A stretch of DNA of 64,000 nt from a virus, in the IMG/VR virus record IMGVR_UViG_3300042549_006840, positions 1 to 64,000 of that record; one strand, 5' to 3'. Under the pieces are notes generated by a model. That model ran no database searches. It was not told the DNA's origin and was given only the letters and a program-made list of their open reading frames with translations. Below, piece by piece: positions 2,232 to 63,778 of this stretch. The translations under genes were made by a program, and so were the position numbers. Position 1 is the stretch's first letter; each line of letters starts with the position of its first letter.

Positions 2232-2626
2232 TTATTGTCCTTCAACAACTTTAGCAGATCAGCAGTAGATCCAAGATATAGATTGTTGTTTACGGTTTGT
2301 GGACCACCATTATCTACCTTCTCAAGATCTTTTCTTTTCTTAGCAAGCTCGAGTAAGTCTTTATTAGCGTCGGCAACCGCTTTAACCAGCGTTGCAACGA
2401 CTTCATAGCTTCTTGGATGCTGACTCATACCAGCGACGTCGAGAATGCCACTGAGGGCTTCCTGACCCTTTTCAATGACAGCAATCATATTGCCTCTTGC
2501 ATATTCATAATCATCTACAATGTTATCTTGAGCAGCTTTCTTATTGTCTTCGATTGGTTGAAGATCTAAGCTGTTCGCAATAACATCAAGATTTTGTGAT
2601 GATGTATCCATAATTATCGTTTGCAT
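2228..2626 (-). CDS. 16: Terminase small subunit gp16
   Basis: Small terminase that recognises DNA and regulates gp17; T4 gp16 has 164 residues, this one 132. It is recognised by position directly before gp17 and by its helical central region (residues about 40-105, predicted coiled coil) followed by a short C-terminal tail. The start is uncertain. The ATG at 2626 has a weak GGA upstream and overlaps the gp15 gene end; an internal ATG at 2611 (MDTSSQ) is also possible. Confidence 0.8.
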   Translation of the reverse strand: MQTIIMDTSSQNLDVIANSLDLQPIEDNKKAAQDNIVDDYEYARGNMIAVIEKGQEALSGILDVAGMSQHPRSYEVVATLVKAVADANKDLLELAKKRKDLEKVDNGGPQTVNNNLYLGSTADLLKLLKDNK

Positions 2627-54246: not shown

Positions 54247-54795
54247 ATGACAGAAGAGAAAAAGCCTCTTAGTAGAAGCGAAAGAGAAGCACAAATTAAA
54301 GACAAAGCAGGATGGCTTATTACCGTACTGGCTGCTTTGTTGGCCATTAATACTTACATTGCTTCTGGCAATAGTTCTAAGGTTTTGAATAATACAATTA
54401 AAGCTAATGACACGTGGGCATTCTACCAAGCAAAGTCTATTAAGCAGACACTGGCTGAAATGGCTAGAGATGATGCTGTTGAGAGAAAGCAGTTTGATAA
54501 AGCAGATAAATTAACTGCTAAAATTAATCGTTACGAATCAGAACCAGCTACAGGTGAAGGTAAGAAAGAATTGTTTGCTAAAGCCAAAGCATTAGAAGCT
54601 GAGCGTGACCAAGTTCGTAAATCTGGTCCTTGGATGACATTTGCAGGATCGGGTTTTCAGATTGCCATTGTACTATTATCTGCTAGTATTTTAGCTGTTG
54701 CACCTGCTTTGTTTACAGCAAGTGTTATAGTTGGTGCGTTGTCTGCGTTGTTGATGAGCCAAGGAATTTGGCTCTGGTTGCCGTTAAGTATATAA
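54247..54795 (+). CDS. DUF4337-like membrane protein
   Basis: Protein of 182 residues. One N-terminal TM helix (about 22-40, WLITVLAALLAINTYIA), then NTIKANDTWAFYQAKSIKQT, the typical DUF4337 signature, a charged helix, and two C-terminal TM helices (about 140-180). The function of DUF4337 proteins is unknown; they occur in bacteria and some phages. It is the last gene of the island, and its end overlaps by 12 nt the end of the convergent D,D-peptidase gene. Confidence 0.75.
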   Translation: MTEEKKPLSRSEREAQIKDKAGWLITVLAALLAINTYIASGNSSKVLNNTIKANDTWAFYQAKSIKQTLAEMARDDAVERKQFDKADKLTAKINRYESEPATGEGKKELFAKAKALEAERDQVRKSGPWMTFAGSGFQIAIVLLSASILAVAPALFTASVIVGALSALLMSQGIWLWLPLSI

Positions 54796-55491
54796 AGCAA
54801 TAAATTCTGCTTCAGGTATTCTGACTTTACCGTCCTTACTACCAAGCAGAATTACAATACGGCGACCAACGTTGGTATCCAACATCATCACAATGCAACC
54901 GCCAGCCGCATTTGTTGTTCCAGTCTTGCTAATAATAAAGTTATGACGCTTTCCAACAATTGGATTTGTGTTGTTAAAGTGCAGGGTCTTTTTACCAACC
55001 TTTATGCTTAAAACAGGTGTCTGGCTAGCCTTGACTATCTCTGGATAGTTACTCGCCTCAAACACAAGACTGAGCAGATCTAGAGCTGTACTAATGTTCA
55101 TCGGACTTAGTCCAGTAGGTTCGACAAACTTAGTCCTGAGCATTCCAAGACTATGTGCCTTCTCGTTCATGTATTTGACGCATTTAAACTTACCGCCAGG
55201 GAAGTTATCACAAAGAGCTTTAGCTGCATCGTTATCGGACTTAACCAAAGCAAGTTGAATCAATTGCTCACGAGTGTACTTACCAATCTTCTCTTGCATG
55301 TTCGGCTCGTTGTCAAGAACAGCAATAACTGTCATCAACTTTGTGATACTTGCAATCGACCTAACTTCTGTAATGTTAGACCCTTCAATTAGATTGCCTT
55401 GATCATCAGTCTCCAACCAACTATGTGCTGTGATGTTCATTGCAAAGGCATTGCTACACAGAAGGCATAAAGTCAGAATTATCTTTTTCAT
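54784..55491 (-). CDS. Secreted D-alanyl-D-alanine peptidase (S11, PBP7-like)
   Basis: Protein of 235 residues with a signal peptide (residues 1-17, KKIILTLCLLCSNAFA) and all three penicillin-binding motifs: SITK (about 48-51), SDN (about 85-87) and KTG (about 189-191). That is the layout of low-molecular-mass PBPs that cut D-Ala bonds in the periplasm. It is shorter than the usual bacterial enzymes and lacks the C-terminal domain of PBP5. Third gene of the lysis-type cassette; its ATG overlaps the upstream stop. It may loosen the wall at lysis or modify it earlier. It is unusual in a phage and probably host-derived. Confidence 0.85.
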   Translation of the reverse strand: MKKIILTLCLLCSNAFAMNITAHSWLETDDQGNLIEGSNITEVRSIASITKLMTVIAVLDNEPNMQEKIGKYTREQLIQLALVKSDNDAAKALCDNFPGGKFKCVKYMNEKAHSLGMLRTKFVEPTGLSPMNISTALDLLSLVFEASNYPEIVKASQTPVLSIKVGKKTLHFNNTNPIVGKRHNFIISKTGTTNAAGGCIVMMLDTNVGRRIVILLGSKDGKVRIPEAEFIALYT

Positions 55492-55799
55492 TTAAACACC
55501 AACAATGAGAGAAGGATCGAATGAACGACAAAGCCAAAACCAATTGTTACGATGTTAATCATGTCTTTGAGGATTGCTGCTCGAACAAAGAACAAAGCTA
55601 AACCACCGTAAACAAACAATACCATATCAATAGGAGGAAGCTTGTCATTGAAGCCTGTCATTACTGATAAGATTGTAGGAATGGTACAGGCGTGAATAAG
55701 GATCAAACCAATCCAAGATAATGTCTCAGCAGTCGTGACTGTTAAACGTGTTTTGCAGAATGTAATAAACTGATGAATGTATTTGTCAAACTGTTCCAT
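55488..55799 (-). CDS. Three-TM membrane protein, holin candidate
   Basis: Protein of 103 residues with three predicted membrane helices (about 24-44, 55-75, 80-102) and a short charged N-terminus (MEQFDKYIHQFITFCKTRLT). Similar small proteins with FCKTRLTVTTAETLSWIGL-type openings occur in aquatic T4-like phages. The place between a cell-wall hydrolase and a D,D-peptidase makes a holin role plausible, but there is no sequence motif that proves it. Confidence 0.6.
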   Translation of the reverse strand: MEQFDKYIHQFITFCKTRLTVTTAETLSWIGLILIHACTIPTILSVMTGFNDKLPPIDMVLFVYGGLALFFVRAAILKDMINIVTIGFGFVVHSILLSLLVFK

Positions 55800-55801
55800 G
55801 A

Positions 55802-56335
55802 TTATTCCTTATAAAAAATGTGACGGCCAATCTTTGCTACTTTCTCTTTCTTCCAACCTGGATTAACATAGTCGGCATGATAGAACATCGCCTCCTTTAG
55901 TCCATCCAATCTGAAGTCTTCTAGTAGAACCTTTTTTGCTGCTGCAACAGATTCAGTGTAGTTAGGGCCATGGACTGGTTTCATCTTCCCAGCATTCTCG
56001 CAGTACCAGCTGAACTGGCATACGACCTTTTCCATGAATACGTTCTTTTGGTAAACTACCTTGCAAACGTCTGAGGGGAATTTGCCTGACTCAGCACGGT
56101 TGAGTGTTACCTGAGCTACAGCAACTTTACCTTCAAAAGGTTCTGAGCCTGCTTCGTAGTAAATGTTCTTAGAGAGACAATCTAACTGGCGCTCTCTCTC
56201 AGACGATGTCATTGAAGACACATTTACCTTGGTGTGTTTAAAATACTCAATCTTGTTGATGCTTACTTGTGTAATGATTGAGAGGACAAAAAATGCTCCC
56301 ACTACAAACATAATGGGCTTCAAAAGTTTTTCCAT
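55802..56335 (-). CDS. SleB-like cell wall hydrolase (membrane-anchored endolysin candidate)
   Basis: Protein of 177 residues. N-terminal TM/signal-anchor (about 7-25, PIMFVVGAFFVLSIIT). The hydrolase_2/SleB domain (about 50-177) shows LSKNIYYEAGSEPFEGKVAV with the likely catalytic Glu at about 61, then QVTLNRAESGKFPSDVCKVV and CQFSWYCE. SleB-like enzymes are lytic transglycosylases. The anchor suggests an SAR-type or membrane-tethered endolysin. The SD AAGGAG is 5 nt before the ATG and follows directly on the tmRNA gene. Confidence 0.8.
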   Translation of the reverse strand: MEKLLKPIMFVVGAFFVLSIITQVSINKIEYFKHTKVNVSSMTSSERERQLDCLSKNIYYEAGSEPFEGKVAVAQVTLNRAESGKFPSDVCKVVYQKNVFMEKVVCQFSWYCENAGKMKPVHGPNYTESVAAAKKVLLEDFRLDGLKEAMFYHADYVNPGWKKEKVAKIGRHIFYKE

Positions 56336-56351
56336 GATATCTCCTTATTGA

Positions 56352-56650
56352 GATGGGTTATTCTGTTACGAGGAAACCCATCGAAACCCTAGTCAGCGTT
56401 TAGGCTGCCAATGCGAAACGTTCATCGTTTGCAGTTACTTTGATTTGCTTTTAACGTCTACTCCTGACGAGTTGTCCACTTCTGTACTTGTAGCCCTGTC
56501 GAAACCATGTCAGGCCCATCAAAAGTATACTGGTTTAGATTATATGGATGTCCGTGATCCCTTAGTCATCTTCATTATCGCACGGCGCAGACCATTATAC
56601 TTTTGGTGGACCTGGCGGAAATCGAATCCGCGTCCAGAACTCTTTTCTAG
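56352..56650 (-). ncRNA. ssrA: Circularly permuted (two-piece) tmRNA
   Basis: Read on the minus strand, the acceptor piece comes first: a P2-like strand, then a T arm with GGATTCGATTTCC and the acceptor 3' strand CAGGTCC followed by ACCA (3' end at 56604). An intervening segment of 86 nt has 9-bp complementary ends. The coding piece starts GGGCCTGACATGGTTTCGAC at 56517; GGGCCTG pairs with CAGGTCC over 7 bp (one G-U). The tag frame GCA AAC GAT GAA CGT TTC GCA TTG GCA GCC TAA (56432-56400) encodes ANDERFALAA, preceded by a TAACT like the E. coli resume signal. A hairpin (56352-56382) closes the coding piece. tmRNA rescues stalled ribosomes and tags the product for proteolysis. The 5' limit of the acceptor piece is estimated. 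Confidence 0.93.
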
Positions 56651-56674
56651 TTACTTCGTACAACTATAACATGG

Positions 56675-60103: not shown

Positions 60104-60195
60104 TGGCGGAAAGCAGAGGAGTTGAACCCCATCCCATTTCTGAGAACCTGGTTTTCAAGGCCAGTCGCAGGACCAACCCCGCTGCATTACTTTCC
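60104..60195 (-). tRNA. tRNA-Ser(UGA)
   Basis: Anticodon loop CTTGAAA, acceptor GGAAAGT, long variable arm, G73 and an encoded CCA. One C-A mismatch closes the anticodon stem. Confidence 0.88.
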
Positions 60196-61446: not shown

Positions 61447-61522
61447 TGGGCAGAAGTATGGGAATCGAACCCATATTAACGGAATCACAATCCGTGGTGT
61501 TAACCTTTACACTAACAACTGC
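61447..61522 (-). tRNA. tRNA-His(GUG)
   Basis: Anticodon loop TTGTGAT. An encoded G-1 faces C73, as tRNA-His requires; two U-U mismatches lie in the acceptor stem. CCA is encoded. Confidence 0.86.
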
Positions 61523-61539
61523 ATAGAATCATAGGATGG

Positions 61540-61615
61540 CACACCAGGGAATCGAACCCCATTGCTAGCTTGTTCCAAACGACCGGTGCGACCGGCGGTG
61601 TGACATCCAATGACA
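61540..61615 (-). ncRNA. Degenerate tRNA-like element (T arm and acceptor-like stem)
   Basis: It has a T arm (GGGGTTCGATTCCC) and a 12-bp end helix GGATG-T-CACACC / GGTGTG-C-CATCC with one mismatch, plus a small hairpin CCGGT-CGC-ACCGG in the D position. The anticodon region (containing TTTGGAA) does not form a normal stem. It may be a decayed tRNA or a tRNA-like processing element. Confidence 0.5.
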
Positions 61616-61704
61616 CCATATAAAAACACACTGACGCAATCTAACGGTTATTGTCGTTTAAGTACTCTTGTCCGAAGTACGGTACTCAATGTGCTTTTAT
61701 ATGG
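61616..61704 (-). ncRNA. Structured spacer A, long end helix starting at the tRNA-Lys CCA
   Basis: The 15-nt arms CCATATAAAA-ACACA and its partner match at 14 of 15 positions. The inner 59 nt form two hairpins (a GACG-CAAT arm and GTACT/AGTAC), so the whole folds as a three-way junction. The 5' arm begins with the CCA of tRNA-Lys. No frame or SD inside. Confidence 0.55.
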
Positions 61705-61777: not shown

Positions 61778-61888
61778 ATTATGTTGTCGACGCAATGCCT
61801 TGTTAGACTTGCGATGAATTCCTGCTTTACGGAACAGTGCTAGACGAACGAAGCAGTTACGTTCGCGCACGATTTTCTTTCGTTTCAT
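61748..61888 (-). CDS. Small basic protein (46 aa), unknown function
   Basis: MKRKKIVRERNCFVRLALFR, then KAGIHRKSNKALRRQHN; the last residues are read from the 5' half of tRNA-Lys, where a TAG stops the frame. The motif RERNxFVxxAxFRKAGxHxKSxKAxRR recalls short basic proteins seen in phages and betaproteobacteria. An RNA- or DNA-binding role is suggested by charge only. AAAGG lies 6 nt before the ATG. Confidence 0.6.
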   Translation of the reverse strand: MKRKKIVRERNCFVRLALFRKAGIHRKSNKALRRQHNASIAQLVEQ

Positions 61889-61908
61889 ACAATACCTTTA
61901 AAATTGAA

Positions 61909-62275: not shown

Positions 62276-62277
62276 AT

Positions 62278-62379
62278 ATTTTTGTTGTGACGCCTGGTCG
62301 CAATCTCCAGGTGAGTCTCCGCAACCGAAAAGGATCGGTCCGTACACACTATAGCCAATGAATTCATCACAACAAAAAT
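62278..62379 (-). ncRNA. Structured spacer B before tRNA-Glu, closed by a 13-bp helix
   Basis: Arms ATTTTTGTTGTGA and TCACAACAAAAAT pair perfectly. Inside are hairpins CCTGG/CCAGG and CCGA/TCGG. The 3' arm ends 2 nt before tRNA-Glu. No coding potential. Confidence 0.55.
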
Positions 62380-62571
62380 TAGGATCAGGCCACTTACCCT
62401 CGTAAGCCCCTGAATGAGTTGTTACCCTGTCCACCGGTTTAACTGTAACGGTTCGGATCCGTCTTGTGATTTCTCAAGTCGCTCTCAATCGAGCCTTGCG
62501 GGTGATCATCAACCGAGCTCTTAAGGTGTTGCAATTCCCTAACTCTATAACGCTGAGTTAACGCGAGGTTC
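62380..62571 (-). ncRNA. Non-coding structured region between tRNA-Cys and spacer B
   Basis: About 190 nt without a frame. Several stems are visible: TCAGG-CCA-CTTAC / GTAAG-CC-CCTGA near 62391-62415, TAACTC/GAGTTA near 62540-62560, GCTC/GAGC and CTTG/CAAG hairpins, and palindromic CGGATCCG near 62455. No long closing helix as in A-D. It could be a stable RNA or a decayed tRNA stretch. Confidence 0.4.
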
Positions 62572-62894: not shown

Positions 62895-63295
62895 AAAATC
62901 CCTGCATGTACTTTGTTGTGGCAATTACTACACAAACACACACATTTTTCTAATTCATTAAGTAGGCGTTCCCATTTAAAATGAACTGAAGCGCCTATTG
63001 TAAACTCCTTTTGAGAAGAGTCAACATGGTGGAACTCTAGACAACAATTTTCTTCTTCACCACATACAACGCAACTCAAAGTCGATTTGTAATCTTCCAA
63101 TAGTTGTTTATGCCTGATACGTCGCTCATTGTTGCGAGCATTATATTTTTCTGCATACTTTGTAGAGTAGTTGCTTCTATGCTTCTCACGAGCACAAATC
63201 TTACAAAAAGGTTGGAAACCATCCTTCTTAGATTTGTCTTTACGAAACTCATTAGAGTCTTTTTCTGCTTTACAGCAAGAACATATTTTCTTCAT
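62885..63295 (-). CDS. HNH endonuclease-like zinc protein
   Basis: Protein of 136 residues. N-terminal Cys cluster (CSCCKAEKDSNEFRKDKSKK, then FCKICAREK) and a C-terminal HNH region: CVVCGEEENCCLEFHHVDSS, then CLCSNCHNKVHAG, with four metal-binding Cys and the HH/N/H catalytic residues. HNH proteins of this size in phage tRNA clusters are often free-standing homing endonucleases. The ATG has a strong TAGGAGG SD within a short palindrome, after a CCTAAATA motif. The stop overlaps tRNA-Asp by 10 nt. Confidence 0.82.
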   Translation of the reverse strand: MKKICSCCKAEKDSNEFRKDKSKKDGFQPFCKICAREKHRSNYSTKYAEKYNARNNERRIRHKQLLEDYKSTLSCVVCGEEENCCLEFHHVDSSQKEFTIGASVHFKWERLLNELEKCVCLCSNCHNKVHAGILDL

Positions 63296-63310
63296 AAATC
63301 CTCCTAAATG

Positions 63311-63318
63311 TATTTAGG
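63311..63318 (-). promoter_or_regulatory. Variant late promoter (CCTAAATA) before the HNH gene
   Basis: CCTAAAT-AC-ATTTAGG is a perfect palindrome whose right arm enters the SD TAGGAGG; the left arm is the late-like motif. The layout resembles the gp13 leader. Confidence 0.35.
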
Positions 63319-63363
63319 GTTCGCAACTTTTCAGAAATTGAACCCTACATTTAGGATAATATT

Positions 63364-63438
63364 TGGTGGAGACCGTCGGTATCGAACCGATCTAGACATT
63401 TTCCTTGCAAGGGAAAACCGTAGCCCTCTACTGCCCCC
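63364..63438 (-). tRNA. tRNA-Ala(UGC)
   Basis: Anticodon loop CTTGCAA, T arm CGGTTCGATACCG, A73 and encoded CCA; acceptor with two G-U pairs. Confidence 0.87.
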
Positions 63439-63442
63439 TAAT

Positions 63443-63591
63443 ATTATAGTAAAGTGCTATCTGCCGATTTGTCAAAATGTAGCTAACACAGACAAGCGAA
63501 TAGCGGTTATATTAGGACCTGTTCCTCGCACAGTTAGGCCCGCATAGTGTACACGTCTGCACACGATACCCTGATAACACTTTACTATAAT
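63443..63591 (-). ncRNA. Structured spacer C before tRNA-Ala, closed by a 14-19 bp helix
   Basis: Arms ATTATAGTAAAGTG and CACTTTACTATAAT pair perfectly; GTTATC/GATAGC extends the helix to 19 bp with one G-U. Inside, GGGCCT/AGGTCC with an inner CTGT/ACAG forms a hairpin, and TTGTC/GACAA another. The 3' arm ends 4 nt before tRNA-Ala. No coding potential. Confidence 0.6.
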
Positions 63592-63778
63592 ACCATTAGA
63601 AAACACACTGGCAAATCCCTTCCTGAGTTATGCATTTGCTCTGCGCACTCTTGTTATCACGTATTCCTTGGACTTGAGATCTAACTCTGGAATGCAAACC
63701 CTGTTAAATGAGTTACCTCATTCGGCCTGACTGACATCCATCCGCAACGGTACTGGGCAGTGTGTTTACTAATGGTAT
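63590..63778 (-). ncRNA. Structured spacer D after tRNA-Ile, closed by a 21-bp helix
   Basis: Arms ATACCATTAG-TAAACACACTG and their partner pair at 20 of 21 positions. The 5' arm begins in the acceptor end and CCA of tRNA-Ile. Inside is a hairpin AATGAG-GTAA-CTCATT with a GNRA-type loop, and longer pairs ATTCC/GGAAT and GCAAAT/ATTTGC. It abuts spacer C directly. No coding potential. Confidence 0.62.

Follow-up and report, generated by a model that had tools for sequence, protein, structure and literature searches.

Buchholz et al. (2022, PMC9004378) described a two-piece tmRNA in the T4-like phage Melnitz; their count of permuted tmRNAs across publicly available phage genomes came to 53, 50 being marine or aquatic. 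The excerpts of that paper drawn on here propose ribosome rescue or selective tagging as the role of phage permuted tmRNAs. A tmRNA database paper lists 79 unique phage tmRNAs (PMC11915505). Given Melnitz and the 53 cases counted in those excerpts, the novelty of a T4-like example is not sustained, and the remark in the initial annotation of the present locus that no well-described T4-like example was known to it is not supported. That annotation also overlooked the segment lying between the two tmRNA pieces, which is the most unusual part of the gene. The two-piece phage tmRNA is already known and the proposed cargo in the segment is the new part; no description of a segment function or cargo in a phage two-piece tmRNA was found in the literature searched, which is no proof of absence. 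The evidence presented below is computational throughout.

The locus lies in a 64,000-nt stretch of viral DNA (the window; positions 1 to 64,000 of IMG/VR record IMGVR_UViG_3300042549_006840), which sits within a linear 65,621-bp IMG/VR fragment. A complete, circularly permuted tmRNA gene is present at about 56349-56665 on the minus strand. Comparison of the whole window with all of Rfam gave a full-length match to RF04321 (134.8 bits, cut-off 47, E=3e-26) and a match to the beta model RF01850 (125.9 bits, cut-off 84, E=6e-38), both curated covariance-model cut-offs being passed with the acceptor/T-arm piece ahead of the coding piece. An independent ARAGORN call returned a tmRNA* with the tag ANDERFALAA, and together the Rfam E-values and this call exclude a chance match to tmRNA. 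The initial annotation had read the sequence as a phage permuted tmRNA with this tag and had proposed a covariance-model search as a check; every feature it listed is found at its position on the minus strand, ARAGORN and Rfam agree, and both two-piece models match above cut-off.

The acceptor/T-arm piece (56604..56665, minus strand; RF04321 match 56665-56400, 5' end approximate) is transcribed first and ends in an encoded ACCA. It carries the 3' acceptor strand CAGGTCC (56614-56608), the discriminator A (56607) and the encoded CCA (56606-56604), and is followed by an intervening segment of 86 nt (56603-56518), assigned to cargo family F0. The coding piece (56349..56517, minus; RF01850 match 56713-56349, 3' end approximate) begins with the 5' acceptor strand GGGCCTG (56517-56511) and includes the pseudoknot region and the tag frame GCA AAC GAT GAA CGT TTC GCA TTG GCA GCC TAA (56432-56400, from the sequence and ARAGORN). 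Near its end is a 3' hairpin, GATGGGTT/AACCCATC (56352..56382, minus), that in the RF01850 alignment corresponds to the final helix region of the beta model. The two acceptor strands pair at 7/7 positions, including the G3.U70 wobble pair of alanine charging, to give a seven-pair stem with a CCA end (GGGCCTG / CAGGTCC-ACCA), and the tag ends in a ClpXP-type degron (.AA) directly followed by the stop (ANDERFALAA-TAA). The window matches the beta model and gave no match to RF01739, the glutamine riboswitch, and its gene is not of the alphaproteobacterial Melnitz type.

PHROG matches in the window include a gp32-like ssDNA-binding protein, a gp59-like helicase loader, the terminase large subunit and T4-type baseplate wedge proteins, which agrees with the earlier assignment to a T4-like phage on both replication and structural proteins. 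The next gene downstream of the tmRNA encodes a cell-wall hydrolase (Hydrolase_2, PF07486, 88.5 bits; 55802..56335, minus), and with its start codon 13 nt past the 3' hairpin it is probably co-transcribed with the tmRNA. The same tmRNA and hydrolase neighborhood is repeated in several other viral contigs. Beyond the hydrolase, at 54784-55799 (minus), are a small ORF of membrane type and a gene resembling that of a D-alanyl-D-alanine carboxypeptidase (PF00768), and together with the hydrolase they perhaps make up a cassette for lysis or the cell wall. The tmRNA gene is preceded by a hairpin that has a weak U tract (56691-56670), and directly upstream of the gene no sigma-70 promoter signal rose above chance.

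Upstream of the tmRNA gene ARAGORN predicts an array of 19 tRNAs. Three gaps in this array (61522-61701, 62276-62571 and 62895-63772, minus) hold unannotated, RNA-like blocks with long complementary ends, e.g., TAGTAAACACACTG...CAGTGTGTTTTCTA and TATTATAGTAAAGTG...CACTTTACTATAATATT, in the style of the tmRNA segment; homologues of these blocks are present in contig L007, and Rfam returned only tRNA-like matches to them. Two probable tRNAs appear to have been missed by ARAGORN, one at 60108-60195 (minus; a sub-cut-off score of 33.4 bits against the tRNA-Sec model) and the other at 61522-61620 (minus), where the 61522-61701 gap has a T-arm-like GGTTCGATTCC...GCCA close to its low end. Between tRNA-Lys and tRNA-Gln (61778-61908, minus) is a tiny basic ORF, MKRKKIVRERNCFVRLALFRKAGIHRKSNKALRRQHN, that is conserved in L007.

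The acceptor pairing and tag frame, whose loss in close relatives the initial annotation had named as grounds for rejection, are kept. All 128 unique phage copies retain the 7/7 stem, G3.U70 and CCA (126 have ACCA), the stem sequence varying with compensation among relatives, and 124 of the 128 tags end in AA. A bonus for G3.U70 entered the choice of acceptor register, which makes 128/128 a slight overstatement of independence, and the unmodified ARAGORN register already gave G3.U70 in most rows. No SmpB gene was found in 14 phage records searched, several of them of 150-200 kb, and SmpB is present in two Burkholderiales (host-type) genomes; host SmpB is thus the most likely partner of the phage RNA. 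Judged from these sequences, the tmRNA part is most likely a host-compatible trans-translation RNA that would rescue ribosomes on mRNAs cut during infection.

The tag had been taken to point to a proteobacterial, perhaps betaproteobacterial, source. A bacterial tag-pattern search did find ANDERFALAA mostly in Burkholderiales, chiefly Comamonadaceae, but nearly all of these genes are one-piece, and a strong permuted tmRNA match occurs in 16 of the 399 Burkholderiales genomes sampled. In trees built on the mature tmRNA sequence (227 columns; supports modest and bootstrap values rough), the window copy falls inside a phage cluster, adjoining L022, L506 and L007, and the sampled one-piece genes form a clade of their own. 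The tag is therefore no sign of recent host capture, a candidate origin that the tree contradicts, and the proposed recent betaproteobacterial source is not upheld. Xanthomonas phage X1 (L003, OQ427096), whose host is named, has an unannotated permuted tmRNA at 121009-121337; the tag call is unusual (VAANDADYSVARYA), the segment measures 126 nt, and the phage offers a possible culturable test case.

Phage and bacterial copies differ in the length of the intervening segment. It measures 24-43 nt in well-registered bacterial beta copies and about 12-37 nt in alpha copies, whereas the phage median is 86 nt and 121 of 130 unique phage copies have at least 50 nt; the phage distribution ends at about 180 nt, very long segments being invisible to ARAGORN. 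The span of the covariance-model match tells the same story, with a median of 216 nt over 137 bacterial matches versus 266 nt in the window. One bacterial, alpha-type copy (L550, 1470-1900) has an unusually long segment of palindromic, repeat-like sequence and a model span of 332 nt.

The 9-bp complementary segment ends seen earlier in the window are real, and belong to a longer closing helix of 13 positions with one mismatch in the window (5' arm 56591..56603, 3' arm 56522..56534, minus). Among 16 distinct sequences, compensatory changes occur at 8/13 pairs, and 96.2-97.2% of cells are paired, whereas shuffled sequences reach 84% and slid controls no more than 45%. Enclosed by this helix is a core of about 56 nt (56535..56590, minus), recognized by its identity and by the recurrence of a 22-mer, with an inner 5-bp helix, CCGTG / CACGG (56585-56581 / 56556-56552), in which a single pair is compensated, from C-G to U-A, in three sequences. 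The F0 family was first seen in seven contigs that had been found without the core as query, and in these seven unbiased members the mean identity is 95.6% for the core, 81.1% for the mature tmRNA and 74.7% for the outer helix; with the columns of the query 22-mer left out, core identity is 93.6%. A spacer better conserved than the tmRNA that surrounds it, and sitting within a drifting but paired helix, is best read as a functional RNA. Two other interpretations of the core fell away: a pseudoknot between GGAU and AUCC is broken by a common G-to-U variant, and the longest frame, an 11-codon ORF (MKMTKGSRTSI), has no ribosome-binding site and most of its aligned substitutions are non-synonymous. 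On the aligned sequences, the inner compensated pair favors RNA over a protein-coding core.

An exact search with the core 22-mer matched 66 viral contigs, and the relatives that carry the core are all metagenome contigs. Two of the contigs are cut off by their own ends; among those whose context could be judged, the core lies in all but two inside a permuted tmRNA, between TCCACCA and the GGG of the 5' piece. The exceptions are L477 (about 2240-2370, plus strand) and L493, where the core is flanked by tRNA-Met and tRNA-Trp, has a separate closing helix and is not surrounded by a tmRNA. The core belongs to no known Rfam family, giving only fragments of tmRNA models and chance matches at E up to 10. 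It occurs in none of 50,697 phage records, including the cultured phages of that collection, and in none of 72,556 plasmid records. None was found in 300 Burkholderiales genomes, a weak result from a search without a positive control. Across the segments generally, Rfam matched no known ribozyme, riboswitch or sRNA, a glutamine riboswitch being found only beside L385.

Other phages carry quite different sequences at the same site. At least six contigs have in their segments an open frame matching PF09791 (E about 1e-10 to 1e-12, above cut-off); in every pair of these frames dN (0.01-0.22) is well below dS (at least 0.16), and in the L066/L407 pair the differences number one at first, none at second and 12 at third codon positions. 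By this measure the PF09791 segment ORFs are under purifying selection. The frame has no start codon inside the segment; followed backward, it stays open to a conserved ATG that lies within the acceptor piece. A 52-aa ORF in L063, L416 and L419 has a ribosome-binding site immediately behind the CCA and ends with a UGA at the 3' boundary. In an independent search, most close relatives had this protein encoded within tmRNA genes and more distant ones had it as a free gene, and in some phages the free gene is directly upstream of a permuted tmRNA, suggesting that a neighbor moved in or out. Further segments encode short membrane-type peptides, and tRNA-Arg(CCG) lies within that of L317. Overall, ORFs with a ribosome-binding site and a stop at the boundary UGA were present in 6/95 segments, compared with a mean of 0.74 and a maximum of 4 in shuffles (n=300). 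No intervening-segment proteins were found in cultured phages. In L568 and L569 the 52-aa ORF is kept between degenerate-looking tmRNA pieces that have lost the acceptor pairing, as if the cargo had outlived its tmRNA.

The segments of 125 phage rows fall into 66 families, and their distribution does not follow the tmRNA tree. F0 requires nine label changes on that tree, six of them forced by well-supported branches, F2 five changes for six members, and F4, F5 and F6 three changes each for three members apiece. This discordance indicates that cargo and tmRNA have different histories. Homologous recombination in the conserved tmRNA flanks is a sufficient, and ordinary, mechanism of exchange.

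The near-identity of the core across contigs could partly reflect recent spread. Taken further, the segment would be a longer but dispensable linker, its core appearing conserved through recent spread by recombination between the tmRNA flanks, and the nearly identical cores, the two tmRNA pieces that would serve as homologous arms and the scatter of family labels over the tree all fit such an account. The outer helix of the F0 cassette has diverged to about 75% with compensation, however, while the core stayed at about 95%, so that time has passed, and the ORF cargoes found at this site evolve under purifying selection; a dispensable linker is accordingly regarded as unlikely. Slightly less likely again is that the core acts in cis on the maturation or level of the tmRNA, through enzyme recruitment, self-cleavage or as a folding chaperone, and is not a separate RNA. 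That would explain why it is within the tmRNA gene in 64 of 66 contigs and why the closing helix is always kept, but 66 unrelated segment families, including ORFs and a tRNA, serve the same tmRNA, the core also occurs between two tRNA genes in L477 and L493, and it matches no known ribozyme family.

Modular exchange at a fixed site is the outcome expected of homing or site-directed gene conversion, and the element might in principle be selected as DNA, as a target of a homing endonuclease or of recombination. The covariation of the closing helix and the one compensated inner pair point instead to RNA, and no nuclease gene was identified among the direct neighbors of the window tmRNA that were examined, which makes selection at the DNA level improbable. 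A captured host tmRNA, decaying and no longer working, would account for the few relatives that look degenerate, such as L568 and L569 with their lost acceptor pairing and retained ORF; with the pairing, G3.U70 and CCA kept in the window copy as they are in 128 unique phage copies, 124 of the tags ending in AA, and the window copy placed inside the phage cluster, this explanation has very little probability.

The explanation preferred over these is that the window gene is a phage two-piece tmRNA with a functional RNA nested in its intervening segment, this RNA being one among many exchangeable cargoes, and from the sequence comparisons this appears reasonably probable. The wider proposal, that the permuted tmRNA of a broad range of aquatic T4-like phages is a three-product gene with its segment as an exchangeable cargo bay, nested genes being released or expressed from the precursor, is held with somewhat less assurance, at a little better than even; as part of the same proposal, the nested genes would be new structured RNAs, small proteins (PF09791, membrane peptides) or a tRNA. 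A single precursor would be transcribed and held together by the acceptor stem, a helix joining both pieces and the 13-bp segment helix. Host tRNA-processing enzymes would then cut after the CCA (56604) and before the GGG (56517), and the two tmRNA pieces, whose end pairing has covariation support, would remain paired and be charged with alanine via G3.U70. Working with host SmpB, the phage tmRNA would rescue ribosomes that have stalled, appending ANDERFALAA as a tag for host proteases. The excised 86-nt segment would be a small structured RNA under strong constraint and not a discarded linker, and other phages would place RNAs, small ORFs and at least one tRNA at the segment site as exchangeable cargo.

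If the segments are cargo, a stable-RNA gene that is highly expressed and precisely processed serves phages as an expression platform for small RNAs and for proteins, and protein genes lie within a housekeeping RNA gene; if true, this could also account for phages keeping the permuted form. The segments would also provide a concrete set of uncharacterized phage RNAs and micro-proteins, each with a processing site precisely marking either end.

Structured non-coding RNAs of phages, such as the giant RNA GOLLD, occur at or near tRNA genes. Neither GOLLD nor any other Rfam family matches the core, and tRNA models apart the same is true of the tRNA array. Like Burkholderiales ssrA, the window gene encodes the ten-residue tag ANDERFALAA, but the former is one-piece in nearly all pattern-matched genomes and is a separate clade on the tree. 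The window and Melnitz tmRNAs are both permuted and both in T4-like phages; that of Melnitz is of the alphaproteobacterial type and has a glutamine riboswitch in its 3' portion, whereas that of the window is beta-type without a riboswitch, and cargo in the intervening segment goes unmentioned in the excerpts of PMC9004378 drawn on here. With the betaproteobacterial permuted tmRNA (RF01850 / RF04321) the window gene shares the order of the pieces, the acceptor stem with G3.U70, the T-arm, the joining helix, the tag context and the downstream helix. It differs from the bacterial beta copies in encoding the full CCA, which about half of those measured do not, and in being phage-borne, with a segment of 86 nt and a conserved core in place of one of 24-43 nt.
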